53,957 nucleotides of DNA. Origin: Bacteroidales bacterium (GTDB taxonomy: Bacteria; Bacteroidota; Bacteroidia; Bacteroidales; UBA932). This document shows positions 2,640-21,926 of this stretch, piece after piece (the first letter of the stretch is position 1; the number at the start of each line of letters is the position of its first letter). The stretch lies in contig JAFTFV010000041.1 in the NCBI GenBank assembly GCA_017458265.1, positions 1 through 53,957 on the forward strand. Reading direction: 5' to 3'. Both the position numbers and the translations under genes were made by a program. A model generated the notes under the pieces. That model saw only the letters and a list, made by a program, of their open reading frames with translations, had not been told where the DNA came from and searched no databases.

Positions 2640-3542
2640 TCAAGCGTGGCTGGTGAGAAGTTTCATGGAGCCGTCCGGTGTGAACGTGACGTGATTCCCT
2701 GAAGACAGCACAAGCACAGTCTGTCCCTGACGCACAGGGACGTTCCCTACATAGCCGGAGCCTTCGATGCACATCACCACAAGGAATTCTCCCGGGACGT
2801 CACGGGTAAAAGGCCTAGTGAGGTCATACAAGCTTGTAGTGAAGTGCTTGCAGCTCACCAGGACCACTTCTTCATCCTTTGCGGGCTCGTAATAAGTACG
2901 GTAATCCGGATATACCTTATAATCGATGGCATCCTTTGCCAGTTCCGTATGGAGCTGACGGGGCTTGCCGTCAAGACCGGGACGGTTGTAGTCCCAGATA
3001 CGGTAGGTTATGTCCGAAGTCTCCTGTATTTCGGCGATGAAACAGCCTTTGCAAATGGCGTGAATACGTCCGGCAGGAAGGAAGAAAACATCTCCCTTGT
3101 GCACGTCGTGCCTTGCAAGGACATCTACTATTGAACCGTCGGCAACCCTTCTGGAATACTCCTCAGGGCCGATTTCTTCCTTGAGACCGGCATAGAGGTG
3201 AGCGCCGGGTTCGGCATCGATTACATACCACATCTCCGTCTTTCCCTTGGAGCCGTTATGGCGCACGGCCGCAAGGGCGTCATCGGGATGGACCTGGATT
3301 GAAAGGTCTCCTGCGGCATCTATGAACTTGATGAGAAGGGGAAATTCGCCCGGAAATACATCGGCAATGGTCTTGCCGTCAAGGGATCCTCCGTCAATGA
3401 CGGATTCGCTGCCCTTCACGCCGGAAAGCTCCCAGCTTTCGCCAATGTGTGTCTGATTTGTCTGTATACCCTTGTACGGGGCGATTTTTTCACCGCCCCA
3501 TACAACGGTTTTGAGTATCGGCTTGAACTTAAAGATTTCCAT
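2640..3542 (-). CDS. manA: Mannose-6-phosphate isomerase, class I (short form)
   Basis: This 300-residue cytoplasmic enzyme interconverts mannose 6-phosphate and fructose 6-phosphate, feeding GDP-mannose synthesis or mannose use. The type I motif IQVHPDD (Gln83, His85), Glu103 in KTEMWYV and His161 in AGRIHAI are the expected zinc ligands. HIGESWELSG near residue 35 is also typical. The length fits the short Bacteroidota/Firmicutes form, which lacks the extra domain of the enteric enzyme. The start ATG follows the M3 peptidase stop by 3 bp, so it is the last gene of that transcript. No clear terminator follows the stop; the 60 bases after it hold only a weak 8-bp inverted repeat. Confidence 0.93.
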   Translation of the reverse strand: MEIFKFKPILKTVVWGGEKIAPYKGIQTNQTHIGESWELSGVKGSESVIDGGSLDGKTIADVFPGEFPLLIKFIDAAGDLSIQVHPDDALAAVRHNGSKGKTEMWYVIDAEPGAHLYAGLKEEIGPEEYSRRVADGSIVDVLARHDVHKGDVFFLPAGRIHAICKGCFIAEIQETSDITYRIWDYNRPGLDGKPRQLHTELAKDAIDYKVYPDYRTYYEPAKDEEVVLVSCKHFTTSLYDLTRPFTRDVPGEFLVVMCIEGSGYVGNVPVRQGQTVLVLSSGNHVTFTPDGSMKLLTSHA

Positions 3543-3545
3543 ATT

Positions 3546-5570
3546 CTACTGCAGGCCTCGGGCTTTCATGAGTGCTGCGGGATCGGGAGCCGCGCCGCGG
3601 AATGACTTGTAGAGGGTCATAGGCTCTTCGCTGCCGCCCTTCTCAAGGAAGGTCTTGCGGAATGAATCGGCCGTTTCCTTGTTGAAGATACCGTCGGAGA
3701 CGAATTTCTGCCAGGCATCGGCGGCAAGGACCTCGCTCCAGAGGTAGCCGTAATAGCCGGCGCTGTAGCCGCTGTTGAAGATATGGTTGAAGTAGGTTGT
3801 GCGGTAACGGGGGATGATTTCATCCACCAGGCCCATCTCTTTGCATACCTTGGTCTCGAAGTCGCGTATGTCCTGAGGGGTCTTGAAGGCCTGGAGTTCA
3901 TCGGCACTCATCTCATGCCATTTCATGTCAAGGATGGAGGCGGCGCAGAGTTCACCGGTGGTGAAACCCTGGTTGAACTTGAGGGATTTCTGTATCTTTT
4001 CCACAAGCTCTGCGGGGATGGGTTCGCCGGTGCGGCAGTCGTTGGCATAGGCTCTGAGGATTTCGGGCACGAAGGCGAAGTTCTCGTTGAACTGGGAGAA
4101 CATCTCTACGAAGTCACGTGCAACAGAGGTGCCGGAAACACTGGTGTAGTGGCACTGGGTAAGGAAGCCGTGAAGGGCGTGGCCAAACTCGTGGAAGGCG
4201 GTCTGTACATTGTCGATGGTCAGGAGGGAAGGCTGTTCATCTGAAGGTGCAGGGAAATTGCAGACGTTCACTATGATTGGTCTGATGTCTTTAGATTTCT
4301 CGACTTCGCTCGAAATGACAGTGTACTGGTCACGGAAGTTGTTCATCCAGGCGCCGCCGCGCTTGGTGGGACGGACGTAATAGTCGCGGTAGAATATGCC
4401 GATGAGGCGGCCGTCCGGCTCGGAGAGCTTCCATGCGCTTACAACCGGATTGTAGACCTCAACCTCGGGAGCGGGTTCTATCTTGATGCCGTATATGGTC
4501 TCAGCAGCCGTGAAAACGCCCTTTAGGACGCTGTCGGCCTGGAAGTAAGGCTTGGTCTGGCTTTCGTCAAGCGCGAACTTTTGGGCACGGACCTTCTCTG
4601 CATAATAGGAATAGTCCCAGGGCTCGATGTCATGGCCGGCGAGGGCCTTCATGTCTTTCATTTCCTCTTTGGCTTTCTTCATGGCCGCATCCATGATGGG
4701 CTGGAGGAAGTTGTCAACAGTGGCGGGGTCTCCGGCCATCTTGTCGGCAAGCTGGAAATCGGCAAAGGAGCGGTACCCAAGGAGGGCGGCCATCTCTGCA
4801 CGCAGTTTCAGGATTTCAAGGACGATGGCGTTGTTGTCGTGTTCATCGGCATTGTTGCCTCGCATTGAGTATGCCTCGAAGACGGCCTTGCGCTTTTCGC
4901 GGTCCGGGCAGGAGCCCATGAAGTCGTAGTATTCGCTCACGGTGATGCCGGTCTTGTCCTTGAAGGCGTTGTTCTCTGCAAGGAGGTTCTGGCCGAACTT
5001 CTGCGAGAGGGAGGAAAGGCGCGTGGAAATCTCGGCAAAGCGTTTTTTACCGGCTTCGTCAAGGCCTACGCCGTTACGTTCGAAGCTCTGATAGAGTTTC
5101 TTGGTGACCATCTGCTGTTCACGGGTGAGGCCTTCCATGTTGTCATAAACGGCCTTGACACGCTTGAAGAGGTCTTCGTTCATGTAGATTTCGTTGTCGG
5201 CCTCTGTGAGCATGGGAGTGACTTCCTCTTCGATGGCCTGCATCTCGGGGGTGGAGTCGCTCTCCGAGAGGTTGAAAAATACTCCGGAAACCTTTGCGAG
5301 AAGTTTCCCGCTGCGGTCAAATGCCGCTACCGTGTTCTCGAAGGTGGGAGCCTCTGAATTGGCAATGATGGCCTCGACTTCCGCCTTCTGCTGTTTGATG
5401 CCTTCCTTGAATGCGGGAAGGTAATGCTCTGTCTTGATCTTTGAGAAAGGAGCTGTTCCGTAAGGGGTGTTCCACTCCTCAAAGAATGGATTGGTGCTTG
5501 TACACGCTGCTGTCATGGTGATAACAACAGCCAGGCCCGAAAGCCTGGCTACTAATGAAGCTTTATTCAT
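3546..5570 (-). CDS. dcp: M3 family metallopeptidase lipoprotein (peptidyl-dipeptidase Dcp)
   Basis: The 674-residue product has an N-terminal SPII-like signal (lipobox near TAAC, Cys23), so this Dcp is probably exported and lipid-anchored. The zinc motif HEFGH is at residues 460-464, inside TAFHEFGHALHG, and the downstream metal-binding Glu region is intact. The family removes C-terminal dipeptides. The overall length fits Dcp. The oddity is residues about 417-426 (ISSEVEKSK), which are the translation of the interspersed repeat at 4293-4320. Related proteins have a shorter loop here, between the NNF..Q and RPIIVNVCNF segments. Both flanking segments and the catalytic motif are intact, so the protein is probably still active. 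The gene lies 2 bp after the OB lipoprotein gene in one transcription unit. Confidence 0.9.
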   Translation of the reverse strand: MNKASLVARLSGLAVVITMTAACTSTNPFFEEWNTPYGTAPFSKIKTEHYLPAFKEGIKQQKAEVEAIIANSEAPTFENTVAAFDRSGKLLAKVSGVFFNLSESDSTPEMQAIEEEVTPMLTEADNEIYMNEDLFKRVKAVYDNMEGLTREQQMVTKKLYQSFERNGVGLDEAGKKRFAEISTRLSSLSQKFGQNLLAENNAFKDKTGITVSEYYDFMGSCPDREKRKAVFEAYSMRGNNADEHDNNAIVLEILKLRAEMAALLGYRSFADFQLADKMAGDPATVDNFLQPIMDAAMKKAKEEMKDMKALAGHDIEPWDYSYYAEKVRAQKFALDESQTKPYFQADSVLKGVFTAAETIYGIKIEPAPEVEVYNPVVSAWKLSEPDGRLIGIFYRDYYVRPTKRGGAWMNNFRDQYTVISSEVEKSKDIRPIIVNVCNFPAPSDEQPSLLTIDNVQTAFHEFGHALHGFLTQCHYTSVSGTSVARDFVEMFSQFNENFAFVPEILRAYANDCRTGEPIPAELVEKIQKSLKFNQGFTTGELCAASILDMKWHEMSADELQAFKTPQDIRDFETKVCKEMGLVDEIIPRYRTTYFNHIFNSGYSAGYYGYLWSEVLAADAWQKFVSDGIFNKETADSFRKTFLEKGGSEEPMTLYKSFRGAAPDPAALMKARGLQ
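4293..4320 (+). repeat. Interspersed repeat copy 1, inside the M3 peptidase gene
   Basis: AGATTTCTCGACTTCGCTCG continues with AAATGACA, 28 bases identical to the copies at 22029 and 30906. It is read in frame on the opposite strand by the peptidase gene as VISSEVEKSK. Confidence 0.9.
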
Positions 5571-5572
5571 AA

Positions 5573-6721
5573 TTAATTGAGTTTCACTGATACCGAAGGT
5601 TCATCGACAAGGGTGAACTGGGCTGCGCCGTTGTAGATGGTAAGGATGCCTGTGATATCGGCAGTCCTGGCGCCGCTCAAAAGCTGGGGGTCAAGTTCTA
5701 CATCGGCAAACTTTGCATATCCGCTGGTTCGCACCTGGACGTCGGTTGAGCCGAACTTGAAGTAATGCGAAATATAGTTTGCAGAGGCGTTCCTGATCAT
5801 GATTTCCTTGTATGGACTGTTCTCGTAAGGGTGGAAACTGTCCAGGGTCTTTCCGGTAAGGCCGGCGCTGGCGGGGGTCACTGTCGCAATGCTGCCGTAG
5901 CGGGTTGCTCCGCTGCCGACCTCGGCACTGTCCCAAACGCCTTTTTCCAGATATGCGATATATCCGGCCTTTGAGCATGACCAGGTGTTCACGCCCCAGG
6001 TGCCTTTGTCGGAGAGGAAGACTCGGTTTTCGGGGTTTCCGCTCTTGTGGGGAAGGCTGGGGTTGGGATAGAAGAGGGCGAAAATCTGGTTGCCGTACTT
6101 GGCACCCTTGACGGTGACAAGCTTGCCCCAGAGTTCCCCGTTATACCCCGCGGAGATAGAAGCCTTGAGTTCGGCTTCAGAGATGAGTTCCGGTTCTACG
6201 GGGTCACCGTAAGGGCCCTTGAAGACGTGCTGGTCGATGATGGCCTGAAGGTCAATGTACGAGGTCTCGTACTCGTTGGTGGAGGTCTGGTCGGCCTCCC
6301 AGCCAAGCTGAGGCATGCCGTTGTATGCGCCCAGGGTGAGACCGTCGCAGTACACATAGAGGGTCTGGCCAAGGGCATATTCGCTGTAGAGCGAAGACTT
6401 TCCAAGCTTGAGGTCGATGCCGCCGGTTTCGTCCTGGATGTAGATTTCCTTATAGATGTTGCCGGTGCGGTCACTGGTGGACACCCTTCCCTTGATCCAT
6501 GTATTTCCGGTCACTTCCTTGGGCTGGCCGCTCTTGTACATAGCCTTGAGGTCCTTGATGGAAGTGAACTTCCCGGGGAAATTAGGAAGGGACTCGGGGG
6601 TATAAGGGACAAAGTCTGCGGGCTTCGTTGCCGGAGACAGGACGGGCTGCCATTCTTCTTTCAGACTCTGGCAGGAAACGAGCGCTGCAAGCGCTAAAAT
6701 AGCGATAACTGTCTTTTTCAT
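5573..6721 (-). CDS. DUF5689-like OB-fold lipoprotein
   Basis: This 382-residue lipoprotein (lipobox LVSC, Cys17, followed by SLKEEW, an acidic stretch like the Bacteroidota surface-export signal) carries an OB-like beta domain at about 75-220. That domain contains WIKGRVSTSDRTGN, then IYIQDETGGI and LGQTLYVYCDGL, the pattern of DUF5689 and nuclease-associated OB domains. The C-terminal part, about 225-382, is beta-rich and unassigned. There is no catalytic motif. It lies 6 bp after the TonB receptor gene and 2 bp before the peptidase gene, so it is probably the surface partner of that receptor, in the position a SusD-like protein would hold. Binding of nucleic acid fragments is inferred from the fold and the nuclease neighbours only. 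Confidence 0.7.
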   Translation of the reverse strand: MKKTVIAILALAALVSCQSLKEEWQPVLSPATKPADFVPYTPESLPNFPGKFTSIKDLKAMYKSGQPKEVTGNTWIKGRVSTSDRTGNIYKEIYIQDETGGIDLKLGKSSLYSEYALGQTLYVYCDGLTLGAYNGMPQLGWEADQTSTNEYETSYIDLQAIIDQHVFKGPYGDPVEPELISEAELKASISAGYNGELWGKLVTVKGAKYGNQIFALFYPNPSLPHKSGNPENRVFLSDKGTWGVNTWSCSKAGYIAYLEKGVWDSAEVGSGATRYGSIATVTPASAGLTGKTLDSFHPYENSPYKEIMIRNASANYISHYFKFGSTDVQVRTSGYAKFADVELDPQLLSGARTADITGILTIYNGAAQFTLVDEPSVSVKLN

Positions 6722-6726
6722 GGCTC

Positions 6727-9624
6727 TTAGAATCTGAAGTAAATGTTAAGCATATAGTTGGTACCTGCCATATAGAAGTACTTGGGATCGAAGCGGTAGA
6801 AGCGTTCTGCGTTGACGGTGTTGTCAACGATACGTGTCTGCTCGTAACCGCCGGTCTTCACCTTCTTGTTGTTCAGGAGGTTCTTTGCATTGAGGGAGAA
6901 GCCAAGCTGGTATTTGCGCTGGATGTACCAGGACTTGCCGATGGATATGTTCACCAGGAATGCCGGTGCAAACTTCTCCTGAGTGGTCATGTACTCGACT
7001 TCGGTGTCGGTGATGGTGTTGTCAAGACCGGCAACGGCATAGTCTGTACGGTAGAGAGGGTTCATGTCAAGGTATGCCCTGTCAAAGAACTCGACGTCAC
7101 CGTCAATGAACCAGTAGTTGTAGTTGTATGCAAGGCCAAGGGACATTGCGGTCTGAGGAGTGGAAGGAATGTAGTGCTTCTGCTTGACATACTTGCCGTC
7201 GGCATTGGTATACTCTGTCTGCTTCCAGTATGCCACGGGCACGTTGTTCATTACGATCTCAGAACTGTTGTCCACGGTCTGGGTCATATTGGGGGTGGAA
7301 GTATAAACATATTCACCCAGTGCGAGGACACCCTGCAGGGAGAGGTTCGGGATTATGTAGGTGGGCATCTTGAAGCCGATTTCCAGGCCCATGTTCCTCT
7401 GGTTGATGCCGGTGATGGCAAAGTTGGAGAATGCGTTCTGGAGGTCATCGTATGCGCTCATCACCTTGCTCTGATCCTTGATGGTGGTGTAGTACAGGGT
7501 ACCGCGGAAGTTGATACCGTTTGCGCTGTACTGGTAGTTCACATCGGAAGAGAAGGTCTTGGCGGTGGTGAGTCCTTCCATGAGAGAGTTTCGGGTACGG
7601 GGGCTCAGGAAAGCCTGGTTGAACTTGGGGGCATCGGCAAAGTAACCTACATTTGCATATACCCTGGAGCTTCCGTCGAGGACGTAGTTCAGGCCCAGCT
7701 TTGCGGCATAGGTAAGGAAGTTGCTCACCTTGGACTTGCCGTAGGATGTGGTCACGGTTTCGCCGTCGGATTCATAGGTAGGCTCGATTGCTACGCCGTC
7801 CACGACGAGCTTGTTGCCGTTTTCGTCAACTCCGGGGAAGAGACCCTTTCTGATGAGACCGTCCCTCCAGAAGGAGTTGTAGCCGATTCGGCCGCCGACG
7901 TTCACCTCAAGGTCTCCAAGGGTGTAGCGCTCATTGAGCCAGGCCTCGTAGTTTCTCACCTGGGCAAGATAGTCGTAGCCGTACTTGTCGCCAACGCCAA
8001 GAGTGCGGGCTTCGCCGTTGGCAATATAGTAGTCGAGGTCATTCTGGAGTTTGTATGGCGTGGCCGCGAAGTCCCTTTCGGCAAAGTTGTCGATATCCAG
8101 GAAATACTCGCCGCCAAGAAGGTCTGCAACCTTCTTGTAATACTCAGTGCGGTTGATGCGTGCACTGAGGCCGCCGGTAACGAGACTGTGGTCTGAAGAG
8201 CGATACTTGAACGACGCAGCAAGGTTGAGGTCCCTCTGGTCTACATGGCGCTGCTCCTGGATGTACTTGGAGCGGCCTCCCTGAAGTGCGTTCACATTGT
8301 ACAGGCGGTCCCAGTTCACATGGGTGAGTTCGGGATACAGTTTGGAATGTGTCCAGACTTCCTGCGCCCAGCCATACTTCATGTCGTTGTGACGGTTCAT
8401 GTCAGGATTGGAATCCATGAAGTATGAAGGGAGGTTGCGGTAATAGTCGGGACGGGGATCCTGGGCATCATACCAGTCAAGTGCAGTGTAGCCGTTGGTA
8501 CCAAAGCGGTACATGATGGTTGTGTTTGCCTCGAACTTGTCTGAAGGAGCGTAATTCCACTTGATGAAGGCGATAGGCTCGTTGGTCTTGCGCACGCGGG
8601 CATTACGTACCTTGCCGTTCTGGTAGCCCCAGTTGGAGTTGTACATATTGTCCTTCATGAGGTCATATACTTCCTGGGTGGATGCGTTCTGTGCACCGCG
8701 CTCTCCGGGAGTGGCAAAGAATACGAAGCTGACGGTGTTGGCGTCGTTGATGGCCTTGTCCGCTGCGAAATAATAGGCAAGAGACTTATAGTATACACCG
8801 TCAATCCAGTCGTTGCCGCCGAGACGGGCACTGACGTTGGCCGCGAAGGCCCAGCCGTTGTCCATCATGCCGGTGGCATAGGATGCCATGAGACGGAGCC
8901 TGTACAGTGTGCTGTTGGTAAGGACGCTGCCGCGGAGGCCCTTTCGCACATTGAGTGCATTGCCGAAGATATTGGTAACGCCGTTATATCCGCCGAAGCC
9001 ATACTCTGAGACCTCCGAGCCGTTCACGGTCTCCTTGGTGCGCATTGCCTCGTTAAGGCCGCTCCAAAGGGAGAAGGGGCCGTAACCGGTGATGGCGTCG
9101 TTCAGCTTCACGCCTGCAAGATAAACATCCTGGCTCTCCGAGCTGTAACCGCGGGCGCGGAAACGCACTGCAGAGAAGTTATAGCCGGCGATGTTGTTGA
9201 ACACGTCATTGGAGCCGAAGAGGATGGTGGGGTTGTCATTGTAACCGCTGTCATCCATGTCGAAGGCCGCAAATGAATCGTCATCCAGTTCCGTCACCTT
9301 CTTGATTCCGGAGATGGAGAGATTGAACATGTTCTTTACGTAACCGTCATTCACCGTAACCTGGACCTGGGTCTCGAGATAATCAGGGGCCTCGATGAGG
9401 AGGGTATACATACCATCCTTCAGGTTTGGTATCATGAACGTACCGTCCTGGGCCGATGAAACCTCTGCAAGCCTTTCAGCCCCCTGGAGAAGCACAAGAC
9501 GTGCACCTTCCACGGGCTGGCGGCCGTCACGGTCTACCACAGTACCCTTCACGCCGCCTGTCTGGGCAAACATGACTGCCGATGCAAGGACTGCCGCAAG
9601 TGCAAGTATGAATCTTTTAGCCAT
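6727..9624 (-). CDS. TonB-dependent outer-membrane receptor
   Basis: The 965-residue protein has a cleavable signal (cleavage near MFAQ), then a carboxypeptidase-regulatory-like domain at about 24-110 (GTVVDRDGRQPVEGARLVL). A plug domain follows at about 115-260, with VRFRARGYSSESQDVYLAGV, and then a long beta-barrel ending in the aromatic terminus NIYFRF. This architecture is the Bacteroidota energy-dependent importer. It is not a classical SusC and has no SusD partner. Neighbours are an OB-fold lipoprotein 6 bp downstream and a secreted EEP nuclease 7 bp upstream, all in one transcript. The context suggests uptake of nucleic acid breakdown products or phosphate-containing ligands, but the substrate cannot be read from the sequence. 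Confidence 0.88.
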   Translation of the reverse strand: MAKRFILALAAVLASAVMFAQTGGVKGTVVDRDGRQPVEGARLVLLQGAERLAEVSSAQDGTFMIPNLKDGMYTLLIEAPDYLETQVQVTVNDGYVKNMFNLSISGIKKVTELDDDSFAAFDMDDSGYNDNPTILFGSNDVFNNIAGYNFSAVRFRARGYSSESQDVYLAGVKLNDAITGYGPFSLWSGLNEAMRTKETVNGSEVSEYGFGGYNGVTNIFGNALNVRKGLRGSVLTNSTLYRLRLMASYATGMMDNGWAFAANVSARLGGNDWIDGVYYKSLAYYFAADKAINDANTVSFVFFATPGERGAQNASTQEVYDLMKDNMYNSNWGYQNGKVRNARVRKTNEPIAFIKWNYAPSDKFEANTTIMYRFGTNGYTALDWYDAQDPRPDYYRNLPSYFMDSNPDMNRHNDMKYGWAQEVWTHSKLYPELTHVNWDRLYNVNALQGGRSKYIQEQRHVDQRDLNLAASFKYRSSDHSLVTGGLSARINRTEYYKKVADLLGGEYFLDIDNFAERDFAATPYKLQNDLDYYIANGEARTLGVGDKYGYDYLAQVRNYEAWLNERYTLGDLEVNVGGRIGYNSFWRDGLIRKGLFPGVDENGNKLVVDGVAIEPTYESDGETVTTSYGKSKVSNFLTYAAKLGLNYVLDGSSRVYANVGYFADAPKFNQAFLSPRTRNSLMEGLTTAKTFSSDVNYQYSANGINFRGTLYYTTIKDQSKVMSAYDDLQNAFSNFAITGINQRNMGLEIGFKMPTYIIPNLSLQGVLALGEYVYTSTPNMTQTVDNSSEIVMNNVPVAYWKQTEYTNADGKYVKQKHYIPSTPQTAMSLGLAYNYNYWFIDGDVEFFDRAYLDMNPLYRTDYAVAGLDNTITDTEVEYMTTQEKFAPAFLVNISIGKSWYIQRKYQLGFSLNAKNLLNNKKVKTGGYEQTRIVDNTVNAERFYRFDPKYFYMAGTNYMLNIYFRF

Positions 9625-9630
9625 AGTGTG

Positions 9631-10710
9631 TTATTTCTTCTTGATAATGATATAGGTGGGATAGTGGTCGGAATAGCCGCCCACGAAAGCTCCGTTGGAG
9701 AATGTGCGGAACGGGGTGCCCTTGTATTGGCCGCTCTGGTTGGTCATGAACGGCTTGGAGAATATCCTGCCGTAGAATTTCTTCTTCACGATGGGCTGGA
9801 TCTGGAAGGTGCCCTTCTGGGCATGGGCCAGGTTGTAGTTCACAAGGATGCAGTCATAGATATTGCCCTCTCCCCTGTAATACAGGGAGCTGAAACCGGC
9901 ATCCAGCATGCTCCAGAAAGGCGAGAAGTAATCGGCCTCCTTCACGTCATTGATATTCTTGCGCCCGCGCATGTGTTTTGCCATGGAATCGTCAAAGGGA
10001 TTGTCGTTCATGTCACCCATGATGACGCACTTGATGCCGGGATACTTCTTCATCATCTTCATCGAATGCTGGTAAGCGATTTCACCGCCACGTGCACGTG
10101 TATCGACACCCTTGCCGCCAAGACGGGAAGGAAGGTGGCAGACGTAGAAGGCGAAGTGCTCTCCGTCGATGATGCCGTGCACCATGAGGATGTCACGGGT
10201 GCGGAAGTTGGCCTGTTCCTCCTTGTTCATTTCGAACTTTATGCTGGAGCCTTCGAAAGTGAAGGGGATGGACTCGCTTTCCACAAGGGTCATCTTCTTT
10301 GGATCATAGAGAAGGCCCACGTCTACGCCGCGGCGGTCAGGGCCGTCGTAGTGGACAATCTGGAAGTTGGCATCGGCAATTGCGGGCTCGTTCACCAGAT
10401 CTTCCAGGACGTGGCGGTTCTCAATCTCGGAAACGCCCAGCACGGTGTGCCATACGCCATTGTCCTTTTTCATTTCGGCGATGACACGGGCCATGTTCTG
10501 GAGCTTCTTCTGATACTTTGCCTCCGTCCACTCGTTTGCTCCGTCGGGGAGGTACTCGTAGTCGTTTTTGCCCTCGTCATGATAGGTATCGAAGAGGTTC
10601 TCCAGATTGTAGAAACCTATCACGTGACTGCGGTTCTTGGGACCGGCCCAAGCGGGAACGGCGACCAGAATAGCCAGAAGGGCTGCAAGAAGTGTAGTTT
10701 TACGTTTCAT
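9631..10710 (-). CDS. Secreted endonuclease/exonuclease/phosphatase family protein
   Basis: Starting at the ATG at 10710, the product has 359 residues and a clean SPI signal ending near PAWA-GPK. A start 17 codons earlier would place a polar extension before the signal and is unlikely. EEP-fold motifs are present in order: GFYNLENLFDT (Asn35, Glu37), then VIMGDMNDNP at about residue 250, and GGYSDHYP with the catalytic Asp-His pair at 348-349. These are the metal- and phosphate-handling residues of DNase I-like enzymes. The protein should act in the periplasm or at the surface on nucleic acid or another phosphodiester. It lies between the TonB receptor and a second nuclease gene. Confidence 0.85.
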   Translation of the reverse strand: MKRKTTLLAALLAILVAVPAWAGPKNRSHVIGFYNLENLFDTYHDEGKNDYEYLPDGANEWTEAKYQKKLQNMARVIAEMKKDNGVWHTVLGVSEIENRHVLEDLVNEPAIADANFQIVHYDGPDRRGVDVGLLYDPKKMTLVESESIPFTFEGSSIKFEMNKEEQANFRTRDILMVHGIIDGEHFAFYVCHLPSRLGGKGVDTRARGGEIAYQHSMKMMKKYPGIKCVIMGDMNDNPFDDSMAKHMRGRKNINDVKEADYFSPFWSMLDAGFSSLYYRGEGNIYDCILVNYNLAHAQKGTFQIQPIVKKKFYGRIFSKPFMTNQSGQYKGTPFRTFSNGAFVGGYSDHYPTYIIIKKK

Positions 10711-10748
10711 TGTTATGTGATTGTTTCTTTTTATTTCCACAAGAAAGC

Positions 10749-11960
10749 TTATTGCCACCATGAGGCGGGCTTCGCCGATTCTATTTTACTGGCTTTCTCC
10801 TGACCAATAAGCTTTATCAGATTCGGGAAAAAGTCTATCCCGGTTTTTTGCTCCAAATCATCAATGCTCATCACGTAGTCAGCATAATTGCCTTTGGCTA
10901 TACTGGAATCGTGAGGCAGAATATACCCCGCCGCCATATATCCGTCAGTAGCATACATGGAAGAAGCTCCTCTGGCAAGAAGTGCCTTATAGTAATATGT
11001 CGGGACAGTAATCTTGTTTCCGGAGCGGTCCTTGGCATAATACTTGGCGCCATCAACCAAACAGCCTGTAACGACGTAAAGAGTATCGCACTTTTTCGAA
11101 AAATCTCTAACCTTTCCCTCTAATGTCGCCCAGATACCACCGTTAAAAGAATTATCCTGTGGAGTCATATTTGTACCATAATACGTTGTAGCATTACGGG
11201 AAAAAGAGCCAAGTCTGTCGGCGGATGCTATTTGGTGCCCACGCGAATACCACCCATTATTACCATCAAGATAACCACCAGACACATTCTGCTGAACACT
11301 ATAGTTGTCACCAAAAACAGGGTCATAGGACCAGGCCTCAGATCGTTCCACATACGAACCAATTAAGCCACTGTTCAAAGGATATGCAACCCAAATAGAC
11401 AGGCGATTATCATAATCCCAATAACACGTCCAATTACGCTCTCCACTGACGGCCTTATATCTATATTTGCCGCCGCTCATGTCGTGAATCAGGAGTTCAC
11501 GGCCGTCGCCCTGAACCATTGCCGGGAGCTCCAGCCAGTCAAGATTGGCGGGGGCTACGTCGTAGCCGTACTGGCCGCTTGAAGAACTGCCGGATGCCCC
11601 TACCTGTTCTACTGCCGCAGTAGCGGTATTTGAACCGCTGACAAGAACAAGGGTTACGGAACGGGATTCCTCGCCTTCATTGGCCTCATAAGACAGGCGC
11701 ACATCTCCTTTAGGGCCCGAGCCGGAGACATCGCTCAGCGTTGCCCAGCCCTGGGCATCGGCACCGAAGTCCAGCGACAGCGTCCATTTTCCGGAGGCCT
11801 TGACATCGACCCAGATTTTGCCTTCCTCACTTGAAAGGCTGGTGGTACGGGGGGTCACGGAAATGGTTTCTTCTTCGCCTGTGTCAGAAAGCAGCCCCTC
11901 GCAGGACTGGAATGCCAGTGCCGCAAGCAATGAAAGGATGGGGAGAACGAGTCTTTTCAT
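10749..11960 (-). CDS. BACON-domain DNA/RNA non-specific endonuclease lipoprotein
   Basis: The 403-residue lipoprotein (FQSC, Cys20) has a BACON domain at about 32-120, a Ser/Gly linker, and a NUC1/NucA-type nuclease domain at about 135-395. The nuclease signature is SRGHQIASADR at 239-249, with His242 as the general base of the usual DRGH motif. MTPQDNSFNGGIW follows, with Asn270 as the likely Mg ligand. The first residue of DRGH is Ser here, a tolerated variant in the family. BACON domains usually mediate surface or mucin attachment, so this looks like a tethered surface nuclease. The gene is the first of the run of six minus-strand genes and lies directly downstream of the terminator at 11981. 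Its C-terminal half is visibly richer in A+T than its BACON half. Confidence 0.85.
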   Translation of the reverse strand: MKRLVLPILSLLAALAFQSCEGLLSDTGEEETISVTPRTTSLSSEEGKIWVDVKASGKWTLSLDFGADAQGWATLSDVSGSGPKGDVRLSYEANEGEESRSVTLVLVSGSNTATAAVEQVGASGSSSSGQYGYDVAPANLDWLELPAMVQGDGRELLIHDMSGGKYRYKAVSGERNWTCYWDYDNRLSIWVAYPLNSGLIGSYVERSEAWSYDPVFGDNYSVQQNVSGGYLDGNNGWYSRGHQIASADRLGSFSRNATTYYGTNMTPQDNSFNGGIWATLEGKVRDFSKKCDTLYVVTGCLVDGAKYYAKDRSGNKITVPTYYYKALLARGASSMYATDGYMAAGYILPHDSSIAKGNYADYVMSIDDLEQKTGIDFFPNLIKLIGQEKASKIESAKPASWWQ

Positions 11961-11980
11961 AGGGCCTCAGATTAAGCCCA

Positions 11981-12012
11981 AAAGGGTGTCCGGGTTCTCC
12001 CGGACGCCCTTT
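11981..12012 (-). terminator. Terminator after the multi-OB lipoprotein gene
   Basis: AAAGGGTGTCCGGG (11981-11994) pairs with CCCGGACGCCCTTT (11999-12012) with one G-T pair and a TTCT loop. On the minus strand the stem ends in TTTT. It separates the gene ending at 12034 from the nuclease operon. Confidence 0.75.
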
Positions 12013-12033
12013 GTGGGGTGATTATCTAAATTC

Positions 12034-14154
12034 TTACTTCGCAATGGCTCCAAAGATAGCACATCTGGTATTGGTACCCGATGTTTCTACCGTAAGAGTT
12101 GTGGTTGCGTCAAAAGTAATGGTATACTTGTCGCTGTCAGTAACTGTAAGAGTGTAGGGAGAAGTATTGGCAAGACCACTATTTGCGGCAGGTTCTACGC
12201 TTGCGACCTCAGTACCGCCATTCTTGAATACAAGCTTGGAGGGCTTGCCATTCCATGAGATGGCATAGAATGTAAGGGAGGTTGAACCTGCAGGAAGAGT
12301 AAGCTCTGATGAGCCGGTAGCTTTGCCTGTTCCAAGCTTCAGGACAGCAACGTTTGCAACGCCATTGACAGTGGCCTTCTCACTGTAAGACTGGTTTGTT
12401 CCGGCAGACCACTGGATATTGCTGGCAAACTCAGTGTCATCACCAGTAGTGGGGTCGTCGCCCGGAGTGGGTTCACCTGCCTCTGTAACGCCGTTAAGGC
12501 TGTAGATGTATGCTTCCTTGGACGCGGTTTCGGGAGTGTTGCCCTGATAATTGGTAAGCTTACCGCAGATTACAACGGCGTCACCGACCTTTACCTCGGA
12601 ATAACCGCTGACCCAAGCCTTGTTCTCAAGATAGAGAACGCTATAGCAGGTAAACTGGCTGCCGGAAGTGGTGCCGTCATCGGAAATATTGAATGTAGCG
12701 GTACCGTGATTTGCATCAAACTGGTATTTAACGGAAGAAATCTTGCCGGAAACATAAACTACATCACTCTTTGCGCCGGCCTCGAGTGCGGATGCGGCAT
12801 CGTTTGCTGCAGCAGCATTGTAAGGATCGGCCTGGGTGCCGGTGCCCTTAGGATCACTGGGCGTTTCGTCACCACCGGTGCCGGGCTGATCGCCACCACT
12901 CTGGAACGAGAGAATAACAGCATTTACGATTTCAGGCTGGTCTTCCTTACCCTCCTTCTTGTAAAGCTTATACTTTCCGGCAAGGGTAACGGTGCCGCCA
13001 TCAGTAATCTTTGACGTCCAATCAGCCTTATTGTCAACACTGTAAACATAGATAGTTCCTGTAGCATCGGTTAGGTCGAAACTGCAATAATTTGCATTGA
13101 ACTTGGAAACCGTACCAGTAAGTTTATAGTACGTGCTTTCATCACCCTTTTCTATTATCTCCTTGACCGTAATAGCAGGGGCGTTGCTGTAATCTTCCGT
13201 CTGACCTTCTTCAACGCTCAGAATTACACCGACAAGCTCATCATAAGACTTTCCGCTTGCATTCGTATACTTGGTGTATACACCCTGGGCTTTCAGAATG
13301 GAGCCAACCTTGATCTTGTCTACATATTCACTCCAGTTGGTAGGCTGGTACACCTCAACCTCGGCTGTGCCGTCATTGATGTATGCATACTTATAATCAG
13401 TATTCATACTGGTGACCTTACCGCTGATAATATACTCGGTAGCGCCATCTGTCTTGATGAACTCTGCACAAGTAACAGTCTCCACATCGGTCTGGGGGGC
13501 TTTCTCTTCCACTTCAAGAATTACTCCCACAAGCTCATCATAAGACTTTCCGCTTTGATTCGTATACTTGGTGTATACACCTTGGGCTTTCAATGTCGCT
13601 CCAATCTTTATCTTATCTACATATTCACCCCAGTTGCTAGGCTTGTACACTTCTACCTCTGCAGTGCCATCATTGATGTACGCATACTGATAATCAGTAT
13701 TGACGCTGGTGACCTTACCGCTGATGATATATTCTGTCTGGCCATCAGTTTTGATAAACTCTGCAATTGTTACTGTAGGAACGACATACTCGCCCTTTTC
13801 ACCTGCCTGCTTGACTGTAAGGGTTGCCCTTACCATGCCGGCGGTGATTACGATGGCAGCTTCACGGTCATTACCGTCGTTCTTCTCTACCGTCACGGTG
13901 ATGGTCTGCTCCTTTGCCGAAGCTTTACCCTCAGTTGCGCTGAGAGCAATCCACTCGGGAAGAGTGTTGACACTGACGTTCCAGTCACGAGTGGCAATCA
14001 TGGTCACCTGAAGACTGCTTTCTTCCTTAGGGAATGAGAGTTCAAGCGGGTCGATGGAAATCTTGGCAACGCCAAGGTCCTGTTCCACCCCTTCGCATGC
14101 AGCCAGGCCGAACAGGCCGACGACTGCTGCAATAAAGAAATTTCTTAGTTTCAT
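12034..14154 (-). CDS. Lipoprotein with BACON domain and four OB-like repeats
   Basis: A 706-residue lipoprotein (GLAAC, Cys20). Residues about 28-118 are a BACON domain. Two nearly identical OB-like units follow at about 128-215 and 227-314, each containing EYIISGKVTS, YAYINDGTAEVEVY and KSYDELVGVIL. A diverged third unit lies at about 328-417. A fourth, at about 445-560, contains YVSGKISSVKYQFDANHGTA and ends EAYIYSLNGV, like the units of the protein at 16689. The C-terminal 120 residues form another beta domain. The units resemble the OB folds attached to extracellular nucleases (YhcR type), but there is no nuclease domain here. This suggests a surface nucleic-acid-binding protein. It has its own promoter and terminator. 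Confidence 0.78.
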   Translation of the reverse strand: MKLRNFFIAAVVGLFGLAACEGVEQDLGVAKISIDPLELSFPKEESSLQVTMIATRDWNVSVNTLPEWIALSATEGKASAKEQTITVTVEKNDGNDREAAIVITAGMVRATLTVKQAGEKGEYVVPTVTIAEFIKTDGQTEYIISGKVTSVNTDYQYAYINDGTAEVEVYKPSNWGEYVDKIKIGATLKAQGVYTKYTNQSGKSYDELVGVILEVEEKAPQTDVETVTCAEFIKTDGATEYIISGKVTSMNTDYKYAYINDGTAEVEVYQPTNWSEYVDKIKVGSILKAQGVYTKYTNASGKSYDELVGVILSVEEGQTEDYSNAPAITVKEIIEKGDESTYYKLTGTVSKFNANYCSFDLTDATGTIYVYSVDNKADWTSKITDGGTVTLAGKYKLYKKEGKEDQPEIVNAVILSFQSGGDQPGTGGDETPSDPKGTGTQADPYNAAAANDAASALEAGAKSDVVYVSGKISSVKYQFDANHGTATFNISDDGTTSGSQFTCYSVLYLENKAWVSGYSEVKVGDAVVICGKLTNYQGNTPETASKEAYIYSLNGVTEAGEPTPGDDPTTGDDTEFASNIQWSAGTNQSYSEKATVNGVANVAVLKLGTGKATGSSELTLPAGSTSLTFYAISWNGKPSKLVFKNGGTEVASVEPAANSGLANTSPYTLTVTDSDKYTITFDATTTLTVETSGTNTRCAIFGAIAK
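13213..13773 (-). repeat. Tandem duplication of an OB unit, ~297-bp period
   Basis: The segments coding for residues 128-215 (about 13510-13773) and 227-314 (about 13213-13476) are shifted by 99 codons and are near-identical in protein. They share long identical DNA stretches, for example around CTCATCATAAGACTTTCCGC. This indicates a recent internal duplication, or conversion between units. Confidence 0.8.
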
Positions 14155-15337: not shown

Positions 15338-16474
15338 ATGTATATTGAAAATCCATTCATAATAAAAGGCTACGCTGGGAAAGAATATTTCTGCGACAGA
15401 GAAAAAGAGACATACACTCTCCTCAAAAACATTCTTGGAGGCAGCGACACCGTGCTTATATCACCAAGGCGTTATGGAAAGTCCGGACTCATCTTCCATG
15501 CCATGGCAGAATTGAAAAACCTCCACCCCGAATTTGAAACTTTGTATGTGGATATATCGGCCACTTCAACGCTCAATAATTTCATTGACAGCCTCTCCTC
15601 TGCCATAATGAACACATTCCCTGAAAAGAGCAGTTTAGGCAAGACATTTCTGGCTTTCATAAAAGGAATCAGGCCATATTTCACCTTGAATCAATATACA
15701 GGCAAGCCTGAGATACACCTGGAATTCTCCCATGAAGAACAGAAGAACAACACGCTAAGGCAAATCCTTGACATACTGGAAAGCCATTCTTCGCCCGTCA
15801 TGGTCGCAATAGATGAGTTCCAACAAATAACAGAGTATCCGGAAAAGAACGTGGAAGCACTTCTGCGTTCACATATCCAGCACATGCACAATACCCGCTT
15901 TGTTTTTTGCGGCAGCAGGAGAAGGATGATGTCTTCCATGTTCAACGATGCGGCAAGGCCATTCTACGCCAGTTCTTCTACGCTGTATTTAAACAAACTA
16001 GACAGGGATAAGTATGGAGCATTCATCAGAGGCCATTTTGAAGAAAACGGCAGAACGATACAGGAAGACGCCCTTGATTACATACTTGACTGGACTAAAC
16101 GGCATACTTATTATACGCAGAGAGTATGCAACGAATTGTACTTTGACGGAGCCAGAAACATAGACATGCCGGCCGTCCTTAGAATCTGCAACAACATTTT
16201 GGAAACGGAGGGGTTCAATTTCTTGATGCTGAAGGAAATCCTGCCTGTACAGCAGTGGAGATTCCTTATCGGCCTTGCCAAAGAGGGCAGCGTCTCACAA
16301 ATAACCAGCGCATCATTCATATCAAAATACAAGATTGGCAGCACCACGACCGCATCCCGGGCTGCCGAATCCCTTGAAGGCAAAGATCTCGTTCTCAAAC
16401 ATACTGAAAAAGACTCCGTAAGCTACGAAGTCGATAATGTCTTCTTCTCCCGCTGGCTTGAAGCTGAGTTCTGA
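15338..16474 (+). CDS. AAA-type ATP-binding protein (archaeal-ATPase-like)
   Basis: The ATG at 15338 gives 378 residues and the usual start of the family (MYIENPFIIKGYAGKEYFCD, with REKE next). Walker A is SPRRYGKSG with Lys48, and Walker B is MVAIDEFQQI with Asp159-Glu160. The sensor-like segment FVFCGSRRRMM follows. The C-terminal third looks like a winged-helix region. Proteins of this type are widespread, often duplicated accessory ATPases of unknown role, sometimes linked to mobile DNA. It is the only plus-strand gene in the first 23 kb and is visibly richer in A+T than its neighbours. Iteron-like repeats lie just upstream and a probable intron scar just downstream. All this points to lateral acquisition. 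Confidence 0.8.
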   Translation: MYIENPFIIKGYAGKEYFCDREKETYTLLKNILGGSDTVLISPRRYGKSGLIFHAMAELKNLHPEFETLYVDISATSTLNNFIDSLSSAIMNTFPEKSSLGKTFLAFIKGIRPYFTLNQYTGKPEIHLEFSHEEQKNNTLRQILDILESHSSPVMVAIDEFQQITEYPEKNVEALLRSHIQHMHNTRFVFCGSRRRMMSSMFNDAARPFYASSSTLYLNKLDRDKYGAFIRGHFEENGRTIQEDALDYILDWTKRHTYYTQRVCNELYFDGARNIDMPAVLRICNNILETEGFNFLMLKEILPVQQWRFLIGLAKEGSVSQITSASFISKYKIGSTTTASRAAESLEGKDLVLKHTEKDSVSYEVDNVFFSRWLEAEF

Positions 16475-16688: not shown

Positions 16689-18497
16689 TTATTCGGCTGC
16701 AACGCTTGTTACACCGTTGAGGCTGTAGAGATATGCCTTCTTGGAAGAAGTCTCATAGGTGCCCTTGTAAGCGGTGAGCTGACCCTTGAGGATAACATCG
16801 TCACCAACGGCGACCTGTCCGAATCCCTCTTCCCAAGGCTTGTTCTCAAGCCAGTAAACTGAGTAAGCCTCAAAATCTTTGGCCTTGTCATCATTGAAGA
16901 CGCCGTCATCAGAAAGCCAGAATGTACCTGTCTGATGCTCTGCATCGAATGCATAGACAATCTTGGAGGCCTTGCCCTTTACGGCAACGTCAGGAAGGTT
17001 AAGGGTTTCATTTGCGGCCTTGGCAGCGGAAAGAGCAGCCTGAGTGTCGTCGATGAACTTCTTTGCTCCTGCAATGTTGAAAGGATAGTCAACGTTACCT
17101 ACACCGTTCTCATCGGAGGTTGCCCAGTTGATGGAGTAGATTTTTGCCTTTTTGCTTGAAGTCTCATACGTTGTGACGTCATTCTTGGTATAGGCGGTAA
17201 CTGCACCATAGAGGATGACCTCGTCGCCAACCTTGAAGTTTGCCTTGATGTCAGCGCCTGCGGTAGGAGCGTCAAGACTTCCGCCAAGATAATATACGCT
17301 GAATGCTTCGAAGTCCTTATTAAGGTCATCGTTATATACACCGTCATCGGAAATCCAGAAAGATGCTGTATTGTACTGCTTCTCGCCGCCGAAGTTGTAA
17401 TTAGTGGTGTTGGAAACAATACCCTTGACATAGACATTGCCTGCAACGGGACCGGCCTTGAGGGCTTCGATGATACCTGCAACGGTGTAAGGCTTGTCAA
17501 GAGTACCGACGGCAGAGTACTTGCCCTGCTTGAGGGTAAGGGTGAGGTCCTTTGCGCCGTCGCTCTTGACGGTGAAGGTTGCTGTGCGCTCGTCACCTTC
17601 GTTGGCTTCCAGGGAGATTTCGATCTTGCCGCTTACGGTGCCTTCCGGAGTGAAGCTCTTTACCCATGTGGATTCTGCATCCTTGGTAACGGTCCACTTG
17701 CCGGTAAGATTCTTTGCGGTAATATCGAAGGAGGCAGCGGTCTCGGAAGCACCTACTACAACCTCGGGTTCTTTGCAAGAGAGCGCAGGAGCCGTGTTGG
17801 CATCGAGCTTGTAGAGGTATGCGGCATTCTGGCTTGTTTCGGCCTGTCCGCCGTAGTTCATGAGAATACCGTAGATAACCACGTTGTCGCCTTCGCTGAT
17901 ATTCTGCTTCTTGGGATCGTCATACTTGGCATTGTCGAAGTAGTATATACGATAGGCTTCGAAGGTCTTCTCGCCTTCCTCGTCACCCATCCAGAATGTA
18001 GCATTGCCATACTCCGTGCCGAATTCTTCAATGACATTGGTGATGATGCCCTTTACATAGTACTTCTTGCCGGTAGTAGCCTTGTCTGCAAGCTTGGCGC
18101 AAAGGGCAACTGCGTCTGCACAGGTAAGAGGATCATCCTCGGTGAGGCCGTGAGGGTCTCCTGTCTGGATGACCGTGATGTACTTCTCAACGCCTTCTGC
18201 AGCGAGGACTATTTCGCCTGTACGGTCATCGAGGGATTCGCCCACGGTAACGGTGACATTGGTCTTACCCTTGCCGGTAGCAGGGGTGAATGTAATCCAG
18301 TCTGCCTTGGAAGTTGCAGTCCAGGTGACGTCTCCGGAGTTTACCTCGACAGTCTTGGAACCGCCTTCAGTTGGAATGGCGACGACTGACTGGGAGAGAT
18401 TTATAGCAAGATCACTGGATACCACGGGAGGTTCCTCTGTACATGAAGCGAGAAGGGCGACTCCTGCGATTGCTGAAAGTAAATATCTGAGTTTCAT
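16689..18497 (-). CDS. Lipoprotein with two BACON and three OB-like domains
   Basis: This 602-residue lipoprotein (LLASC, Cys19) alternates domains. A BACON domain spans about 30-115 and an OB-like unit about 118-235 (KKYYVKGIITNVIEE, then ATFWMGDEEG). A second BACON spans about 240-335. A second OB unit at 336-455 has NVYVKGIVSNTTNYNF and SFWISDDGVYND, and a third at 460-600 has VAVKGKASKIVY and TFWLSDDGVFND. Each OB unit ends in YETSSKKA-Y-YS-N. This is the nuclease-associated OB pattern without any nuclease domain. The gene begins 18 bp after the stop of the Oar-like receptor gene and shares its transcript, so the two probably act together at the surface. The last unit is closely related to the fourth unit of the protein at 12034. 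Confidence 0.78.
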   Translation of the reverse strand: MKLRYLLSAIAGVALLASCTEEPPVVSSDLAINLSQSVVAIPTEGGSKTVEVNSGDVTWTATSKADWITFTPATGKGKTNVTVTVGESLDDRTGEIVLAAEGVEKYITVIQTGDPHGLTEDDPLTCADAVALCAKLADKATTGKKYYVKGIITNVIEEFGTEYGNATFWMGDEEGEKTFEAYRIYYFDNAKYDDPKKQNISEGDNVVIYGILMNYGGQAETSQNAAYLYKLDANTAPALSCKEPEVVVGASETAASFDITAKNLTGKWTVTKDAESTWVKSFTPEGTVSGKIEISLEANEGDERTATFTVKSDGAKDLTLTLKQGKYSAVGTLDKPYTVAGIIEALKAGPVAGNVYVKGIVSNTTNYNFGGEKQYNTASFWISDDGVYNDDLNKDFEAFSVYYLGGSLDAPTAGADIKANFKVGDEVILYGAVTAYTKNDVTTYETSSKKAKIYSINWATSDENGVGNVDYPFNIAGAKKFIDDTQAALSAAKAANETLNLPDVAVKGKASKIVYAFDAEHQTGTFWLSDDGVFNDDKAKDFEAYSVYWLENKPWEEGFGQVAVGDDVILKGQLTAYKGTYETSSKKAYLYSLNGVTSVAAE

Positions 18498-21500: not shown

Positions 21501-21926
21501 AACGTTGGTAGCTGCACCGATTCTCTCCTGGGCTGCAAACTTCGAGATGGGGCTTGCAGTGAGAACGACAGCTTCGAGGAATTCCGTGGACTCCTGAAGG
21601 GTTGCGTTCTGGATGTAAGTCTGACCCAGCTGGAGGGTGATGTCAGTGTAAGTGACACCCTGGTAGCCAAGGTTGGAGACTTCTACGGTGTAGGGACCAC
21701 CGGTACGCATACCCTGGATGGTATAACGGCCGTCAGAGTTGGTGACGCCGCCATAGACGGTACCTGAAGGCTGATGCTGTGCGAGAACCGCAGCACCAAT
21801 CACAGGCTCGCCGCTCTGGTCAACGATCCTACCGGAAAGGGTGGAAGTAGTGACCTGGGCAAACGCAGAAACGCCCGCAATCAACGTAGTGAAAGCGAGA
21901 AGAAAGCTTTTGAAAGCGTTTTTCAT
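18516..21926 (-). CDS. Oar-like TonB-dependent receptor
   Basis: The 1136-residue product has a signal peptide (cleavage near SAFAQ) and a carboxypeptidase-regulatory domain at about 28-115 (LSGRIVDQSGEPVIGAAVL). The plug is at about 120-260, with TNFTIDGANFNNNFGLSSNL, then VSPFDVRQTNFIGGGINAI and TKSGTNTVKGTAY. A large barrel follows, ending YIQLGLKYMFN. The plug signature is that of the Oar (OmpA-related) subfamily. That group includes receptors for large or protein-like ligands and is distinct from SusC. It is first in a two-gene operon with the multi-OB lipoprotein, from a promoter about 60 bp upstream. Confidence 0.88.
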   Translation of the reverse strand: MKNAFKSFLLAFTTLIAGVSAFAQVTTSTLSGRIVDQSGEPVIGAAVLAQHQPSGTVYGGVTNSDGRYTIQGMRTGGPYTVEVSNLGYQGVTYTDITLQLGQTYIQNATLQESTEFLEAVVLTASPISKFAAQERIGAATNVSQSEILSLPTASRSISDVAKLSPYGGNGMSIAGGDGRSTNFTIDGANFNNNFGLSSNLPGGGNPVSLDAIEEIQVVVSPFDVRQTNFIGGGINAITKSGTNTVKGTAYVYHQNGKLRGDTLNGGVEIANKEANEAEKSTVYGATVGFPIIKNKLFFFGSFEYSGEPASQIVSYRPWDGTTTYTDKNGKPVDVAANGYKDGFISRTTVADMQRVSDHLKNVYGYDTGGFNDFAKDASTIKLLGRVDWNITNNHHLAVRYNYTSSKHWVGTNGSSADFNSTGTPGLKGTRLANNRISEYSMVFYNSMYSMENNVSTISVDLNSRLSANLSNQLLVTYSNIEDVRGSDSDKFPFIDILEGYTGSIAGGDLKQTLMPYMSAGYELFTWYNGVHNRVLTAKDDVTYYLGAHKITAGASFEHQFADNAYMREGTGYYRFRSVDDLINGAAPETVALTYGYENNGMGDTPSARIQFSQIGLYAQDEWNVDEKLKLTAGLRLDTILYDDNDLMTNEAVKKLDFGGLSIDTGHWPKKNIQVSPRIGFTYDVFGDKSMKIRGGTGLFAGRLPLVFMTNMPTNAAMFQHLSVFSTQYNTDGTIKVRDEGLDAFAASANGGKFPTSTTDILNKFNEVSPANNPKTISPKDGQVSSKIAGVDPNFKMPQIWKTSIALDLQLPTSFPFTMTAEYTFNKTVNGNLIKDVNMKSNAGWSQWAGPDNRHIYPSNPGYTGTPAYYLTNTNKGYGWIFVLSAKAQPLRNLNITASYTRTEQYEVTGMPGSDPESVFKSLPTVDGPAFATLQPSQYYNPHRLMASVSYKMPWGTNVSLFYQGYVPTGSTFQFDNDVNGDSNITDLIYVPKTKDEILFVSDQARDNFWAFVEQDSYLSSRKGKYAQAYGAHRPMVHYFDLKLSQDVKIRLGSTTNTIQLSADIMNVGNLINDSWGVIKTWDDSAFNGQILTFDHLNENGQPVFSTPLKEGAKTWKPSTGIGQAWYIQLGLKYMFN

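Follow-up and report, generated by a model that had tools for sequence, protein, structure and literature searches.

A nuclease-containing operon built around homologues of a Riemerella transformation pair: a probable outer-membrane DNA importer in a Bacteroidales genome

We have analysed a stretch of 53,957 nucleotides from a Bacteroidales genome (the window), in which six genes on the minus strand between positions 3546 and 14154 appear to constitute an operon for the TonB-driven import of DNA across the outer membrane. In the reading that we favour with moderate confidence, this machinery was linked to natural transformation ancestrally and probably serves mainly for scavenging in the lineage of the window. 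Its core, formed by an EEP enzyme, a receptor and a DUF5689 lipoprotein, is a conserved class-wide cassette containing a pair of genes already known from the transformation of Riemerella anatipestifer, and as far as can be judged from sequence comparisons one clade has built this transformation-type cassette into a nuclease operon. How DNA crosses the outer membrane of Bacteroidota is an open question on which the cassette bears.

Read in the direction of transcription, the region encodes an OB/BACON lipoprotein (12034-14154), a lipoprotein with BACON and NUC1 (DNA/RNA non-specific endonuclease) domains (10749-11960), an EEP phosphodiesterase/nuclease (9631-10710), a TonB-dependent-receptor-like outer-membrane protein (6727-9624), a DUF5689 lipoprotein with a probable OB domain (5573-6721) and an M3-family peptidase lipoprotein (3546-5570; PF01432, Peptidase_M3, E 7e-128). 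Open reading frames and Pfam families confirmed the gene set, strand and order given by a sequence-only reading of the same DNA. The tight run that it described also stands, with an adjustment of its spacing: computed from the gene coordinates, the intergenic gaps from the peptidase gene to the OB gene are 2, 5, 6, 38 and 73 bp, so that the 2, 6, 7 and 38 bp first given become 2, 5, 6 and 38. The start of the EEP gene was taken at an internal ATG that provides a signal-like start, the longest ORF beginning at 10761. The five-gene account of that reading applies to its own genes, the M3 peptidase gene of the same interval lying outside it; the latter is a lineage-specific accessory gene, found behind the DUF5689 gene in the window and in loci L035 and L233 and absent from that place in the other 21 of 24 loci of the family. 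Scans for terminators and sigma-70 promoters gave no excess over shuffled sequence.

The receptor was recognized by a CarboxypepD_reg domain (E 1.5e-11), and neither the Plug (PF07715) nor the barrel (PF00593) model matched the window protein at E 0.1. Among 24 members of the receptor family the barrel model matched none at that threshold, and the Plug model matched 12 of 24 homologues (best E 6e-7), which backs the identity of the family as TonB-dependent receptors. Support for the earlier assignment as a TonB receptor comes from half of the homologues, not from plug or barrel matches of the window protein itself. The single receptor sequence retrieved no solved structure at E 0.01, and a receptor profile matched solved structures through their N-terminal carboxypeptidase-like domains alone. 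Its partner, previously described as an OB-like lipoprotein, is a clear DUF5689 protein (E 1.1e-40), but its match to the OB model PF01336 falls under the Pfam cut-off (E 0.0059, 16.9 of 27 bits); the same model matched 10 of 19 members of the DUF5689 family (best E 1e-6), and no solved structure was retrieved by the single sequence at E 1 or by a profile at 0.1. The proposed nucleic-acid polysaccharide utilization locus holds as an analogy only, since the SusC and SusD models matched none of the nine proteins scanned at E 0.01. The region has in common with SusCD-type loci a receptor, a lipoprotein partner and a lipoprotein enzyme in one operon; however, the receptor profile has nothing but its own N-terminal domain in common with a solved SusC homologue, and the enzymes of the window are of nuclease type.

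Beside its BACON domain, the NUC1 protein carries an Endonuclease_NS domain (PF01223, E 2.3e-38) in which the SRGH motif noted earlier is indeed present. Its best solved matches are mitochondrial EXOG (E 5e-16), and it shares the catalytic domain and the RGH motif with EXOG/EndoG-type mitochondrial and bacterial non-specific nucleases, differing from them as a lipoprotein with BACON. Residues R240, G241, H242, N264, N273 and E281 are identical in all 23 homologues with a profile E under 1e-60, while the opening residue of the motif is less constant (D in 20 of 23). Together with PF01223, these catalytic-type His, Asn and Glu residues point to a non-specific endonuclease; we assume catalytic roles for them, as for the conserved residues of the EEP protein. 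In the latter (PF19580, E 2e-87) the reported Asp-His pair was found, and across the 73 homologues encoded within two genes of a receptor, ten of 11 positions examined are identical in all and the remaining one in 72, the residues being of catalytic type. The protein may be a nuclease, as proposed, or a phosphatase: the best solved match of an EEP profile was Nocturnin (E 0.0012), which is a phosphatase, and the ExeM/NucH model matched weakly (E 6e-5, 22 of 300 bits, far below cut-off). The single sequence matched no solved structure. The extracellular nucleases ExeM/NucH have the EEP domain in common with the window protein, which is a stand-alone domain, and the whole window genome contains two PF19580 matches.

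Upstream, the OB/BACON lipoprotein leads this form of the operon and is probably a nucleic-acid binder. It combines BACON (PF13004) with a clear OB domain (PF01336, E 4.5e-17; PF13742, E 4e-8), and four OB-like repeats are visible by eye in its translation, Pfam testing comprising the two OB models only. Counterparts in relatives adjoin NUC1 on the same strand; among nine that were scanned, DUF5689 was found in five, BACON in six and PF01336 in two, each protein having at least one of these. Concerning location, a loose lipobox pattern was seen across 22 co-directional loci in 21 of 22 DUF5689 proteins, 19 of 21 NUC1 proteins and 19 of 22 upstream proteins, and in none of 21 EEP proteins (the gene calls did not show the EEP of the window and a single NUC1), the window EEP also lacking one by eye. 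These patterns would place the DUF5689, NUC1 and upstream proteins at the outer membrane or surface, whereas the missing lipobox makes the periplasm the likelier, and probable, site of the EEP enzyme. Its export, claimed earlier, agrees with the signal-like start, a surface location being less likely by the lipobox count.

A possible function for the core of the operon emerges from R. anatipestifer, in which a transposon screen for natural transformation identified RA0C_RS04915 and RA0C_RS04920, whose homologues are the window receptor and the DUF5689 protein. In the available text of that study (PMC8459023), RS04915 is a CarboxypepD_reg outer-membrane protein, RS04920 a protein with DUF5689 and DUF5017, and RS04895 ComEC; markerless RS04915 and RS04920 mutants each transformed below the detection limit, and the pair was proposed to act as binder and channel, the strand-degrading step being left unknown. 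The same text names RS04910 once, as the gene upstream of the receptor whose transcription was unchanged, lists 16 markerless mutants without it, and states the distribution both ways, with homologues widespread in Bacteroidetes and receptor homologues only in Flavobacteriaceae. According to the accessible part of another report, tonBA and tonBB mutants of that species transform less, iron acquisition being lowered in tonBB only (PMC8383284).

We read two Riemerella-type loci, L130 (on a 2,164,087-bp contig) and L141 (R. anatipestifer CCUG25054), which have the same gene order, namely ComEC, a 145 aa protein, a 542 aa protein, EEP, receptor and DUF5689, with ComEC proteins 94% identical. As this order fits the RS tags step by step, the EEP gene should be RS04910. 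Pfam matches in L130 comprise ComEC (PF03772, E 2.6e-57), a carboxyl transferase, EEP (PF19580, E 2e-99), the receptor (PF13620) and DUF5689 (E 4.6e-56) with DUF5017. Between the window and L130 the receptors are 29% identical over 1009 aligned positions (E 1e-104), the EEP proteins 28% identical (E 1e-59), and the DUF5689 proteins align over about 150 residues (E 2e-12). Similarity of the receptors is reciprocally best: a search of the window genome with the L130 receptor finds the window gene and nothing else, and a profile of 24 receptors including that of the window (A1) has its best match in CCUG25054 at the transformation locus (766 bits; next 162). In the window, too, the DUF5689 lipoprotein gene lies directly downstream of the receptor gene. 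This homology to a transformation pair suggests that the ancestral job was probably DNA uptake, rather than feeding. The R. anatipestifer locus resembles the window in its homologous receptor and DUF5689 genes, in their order and in the adjoining EEP gene; it differs in that EEP is divergent, ComEC lies four genes from the receptor and NUC1 and the OB lipoprotein are missing from the locus as read, whereas in the window the genes share a single co-directional operon that includes a surface endonuclease and an M3 peptidase, the shortened ComEC being encoded on another contig.

The window genome shares its class with R. anatipestifer, and we take this class to be Bacteroidia. The receptor was found in 116 of 247 genomes of the order (E 1e-30), and the A1 profile matched at least 149 of 395 genomes of the phylum at 1e-20, with at least 60 genomes at 664 bits or more, all in the class of the window, and the next match at 287 bits; these A1 counts are lower bounds because two candidates per genome were scored, and in a further genome (G468) the receptor gene is in two frames. 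Neighbourhoods were chosen by receptor similarity alone and covered 40 of the 116 genomes of the order (mostly the best-scoring), 20 of 60 of the class and 64 named loci, two of these having a receptor that is weak or incomplete; some species may be represented both in the unnamed and in the named sets. DUF5689 occurred within two genes downstream of the receptor in 116 of 123 loci having a downstream gene (38/39 order, 17/20 class, 61/64 named), and among 120 loci having an upstream gene, 105 had EEP no more than two genes upstream (28/39, 16/19 and 61/62, respectively); at other gene positions EEP appeared in 6 of 1668 (4/416, 1/267 and 1/985). The loci are related by descent and are thus not independent trials, and counts of loci with no EEP are upper bounds, since some genes were overlooked or masked in gene calling (the window EEP, the NUC1 of L223 and the EEP of L058, behind two small ORFs). 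Linkage of these families, which the sequence-only reading had anticipated in relatives, was therefore observed, with DUF5689 and EEP by the receptor in most loci and NUC1 in one clade; most commonly the cassette lacks NUC1, and this form is present in Flavobacterium and Chryseobacterium.

Within the family of the window the receptor was found in 27 of 79 sampled genomes, and 24 of these 27 loci were read (20 fetched, plus the window, L035, L037 and L038; G932, G946 and G985 left out). The order NUC1, EEP, receptor, DUF5689 on one strand was present in 20 of the 24, EEP being divergent in L231 and L236 and none being seen in L232 and L238. Two loci of another family (L036, L039) also have the co-directional operon. 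A tree of 93 receptors with two paralogues as outgroup, in which the window was labelled manually, groups the 22 co-directional loci in a single clade (support 1.00) with L040 and L067 as sister (1.00), and the Riemerella and other divergent loci fall outside it. NUC1 lies near the receptor also in L040, L064 and L067, and that of L223 was located by tblastn as an open 373-aa ORF. Behind the DUF5689 gene, L220 and L222 have a second EEP, starting without a signal-like stretch by eye, and L225 and L228 a calcineurin-like phosphoesterase, and L230 has a gene of similar size at that position. Models of LpxG and YaeI, rather than of a nucleotidase, come closest to the phosphoesterase, though below cut-off, so that it lends no support to phosphate scavenging.

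In the mechanism that we propose, the OB/BACON and DUF5689 lipoproteins would hold DNA at the cell surface and the NUC1 lipoprotein would cut it there to threadable pieces, which the DUF5689 protein might pass to the receptor by analogy with SusD passing glycans to SusC; passage through the receptor would be powered by TonB, and the exported EEP enzyme would trim the pieces once they are in the periplasm. Under the ancestral, divergent gene order these products would pass to ComEC for transformation, while the co-directional operon in the lineage of the window is probably tuned to nucleotide and phosphate scavenging, transformation being possible but secondary. The original idea of nucleic-acid cutting coupled to outer-membrane import is kept as the best reading and went in the right direction, except that the ancestral role was probably DNA uptake, not feeding. 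A wider proposal, which we put forward only tentatively, is that the EEP-receptor-DUF5689 cassette could be an ancient TonB-driven DNA importer of the class and the missing outer-membrane step of transformation without a type IV pilus, with EEP as the duplex-to-single-strand nuclease for ComEC, and that the lineage of the window made it a DNA-eating operon by means of a surface nuclease.

An operon dedicated to natural transformation, importing long DNA for ComEC/DprA recombination while NUC1 and EEP serve only to generate ends and to break down the strand that is not transported, would suit the homology to the R. anatipestifer pair and the retention in the window genome of DprA, of an open 359-aa ORF of ComEC type and of a frame of 318 aa that contains HhH motifs. 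It would also fit Porphyromonas gingivalis, a naturally competent member of the same phylum that needs ComEA and ComEC and whose outer-membrane step is unexplained, a 2024 paper describing DNA import into the periplasm, in its available text, as unclear and the type IV-like conjugation pilus as not involved. We nevertheless regard this as unlikely, because a non-specific endonuclease encoded alongside the importer would break transforming DNA down and because the window ComEC spans PF03772 positions 1-236 of 270, the last 34 missing, and has no DUF4131, which the L130 ComEC contains. Moreover, ComEC frames are under 600 aa in 17 of 20 family loci with the NUC1 operon and longer in 4 of 4 without it (Fisher p 0.003, a test that ignores the relatedness of these loci; by genus, counted by hand, 10/12 versus 0/2), frames being used as the tool gave them, including one of 588 aa, one split and two flagged with two stops. 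Short ComEC is found in relatives without the receptor as well; its association with the operon leans to scavenging. A stop flagged inside ComEC in the family of the window was considered as the sign of a broken gene; for the window genome, G008 and G126 this was rejected, since open ORFs of 359, 373 and 350 aa indicate a shortened form there, whereas the frame of G224 is split. Competence genes proved uninformative as a discriminator, with ComEC in 42, DprA in 43 and HhH (PF12836) in 41 of 43 genomes, 26 with the receptor (among them G002, the ComEC miss) and 17 without (best A1 match 394 bits). As ComEC and DprA are present with or without the receptor, it is the set of genes in the operon that leads us to prefer scavenging. 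The presence of the cassette within a genus does not by itself imply competence, given that F. johnsoniae is described, in the published account available, as not competent under the conditions tested.

Two further alternatives appear to us improbable, and to a similar degree. The nucleases could clear extracellular DNA in surface nucleic-acid defence or biofilm remodelling while the receptor imports something else; the export-type starts and conserved residues of NUC1 and EEP, and BACON lipoproteins suited to surface anchoring, are compatible with such a role, but the commonest form of the cassette, including those of Flavobacterium and Chryseobacterium, lacks NUC1, and transformation of R. 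anatipestifer depends on the receptor pair. Alternatively, the receptor/DUF5689 pair may act on LPS or on polymers of the cell surface, so that the deletion mutants lose transformation only indirectly. NCBIfam NF052645, which is named M949_1556, matches the receptor-adjoining DUF5689 partner (599 bits in the genome of L130, G686; cut-off 475), and M949_1556 is listed among LPS-synthesis genes in the accessible part of one paper, with its mutant presented as a vaccine candidate and the gene tied to antigenicity and pathogenicity in the available literature. Such reports could mean that the transformation effect is indirect or that the pair has another role, the link to M949_1556 running through the name of the family. 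The L225 and L228 phosphoesterase also resembles LpxG, a lipid A enzyme, below cut-off; against this reading, it is an EEP enzyme that most often adjoins the pair.

A known pair and an EEP gene form a class-wide cassette that one lineage has coupled to a surface nuclease, so that the uptake of genes and the use of DNA as food may pass through a single gate, and the operon may show how many of its relatives import DNA. A literature search returned no relevant report of TonB/OB/nuclease DNA-utilization loci, an absence that weighs little as subscription papers and preprints were mostly uncovered.

The OB lipoprotein gene had been assigned to its own unit, and this holds in part. The 73-bp spacer that separates it from NUC1 (11961-12033, minus strand) contains a strong hairpin with arms within 11981-12012, its fold reaching -33.3 kcal/mol (z -4.63) with none of 200 shuffles equally good; on the other hand, in the 21 of 22 co-directional loci that were measured (all but L223) the distance from NUC1 to the upstream gene is -11 to 129 bp on the same strand. 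The hairpin has no second copy in the window at up to 3 mismatches and is not among the terminator-like elements of the terminator scan. It is possibly an attenuator or an RNA-processing stem, and with such a spacer the coupling of the OB gene to the rest of the operon may be partly lost in the window.

A second pair of genes in the window encodes a BACON lipoprotein and a barrel protein (16689-18497 and 18516-21926). The large barrel protein, with 1136 aa and matches to PF25183 and PF00593, is followed by the lipoprotein, which carries OB-like repeats. In L035, a receptor locus from the same genus as the window, a homologue of the barrel receptor lies immediately upstream of an OB lipoprotein and NUC1, and the barrel protein of the second pair may be another nucleic-acid receptor. 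Between the two receptor loci of the window, an ATPase_2/AAA-type ATPase is encoded on the plus strand (15338-16474).

The Bacillus subtilis control genome (G000) also contains a DUF5689 (PF18942) match that passes the cut-off and may be the YhcR nuclease. The DUF5689 transformation partner of the Riemerella-type locus (L130:9731-11134) matches the NCBIfam M949_1556 family, and M949_1556 is called LPS-related in published papers. Second EEP genes are located immediately behind DUF5689 in two relatives (L220:12198-13223 and L222:6572-7594), and inspection by eye revealed no signal-like start in either. The ComEC of the window genome (L211:4122-5201, contig C42) is a 359-aa form devoid of DUF4131; loci L212 and L213 carry a short ComEC as well, and in genome G224 the frame is split.

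A strong hairpin (11981-12012) separates the OB lipoprotein and NUC1 genes. It resembles in sequence the hairpin of relative L226; those of L035, L036 and L039 are also strong and unlike it in sequence, while that of L229 is weak. Finally, a mannose-6-phosphate isomerase-like gene (2640-3542) lies 3 bp past the M3 peptidase gene, and homologues occur near the locus, on the opposite strand, in L035 and L227.
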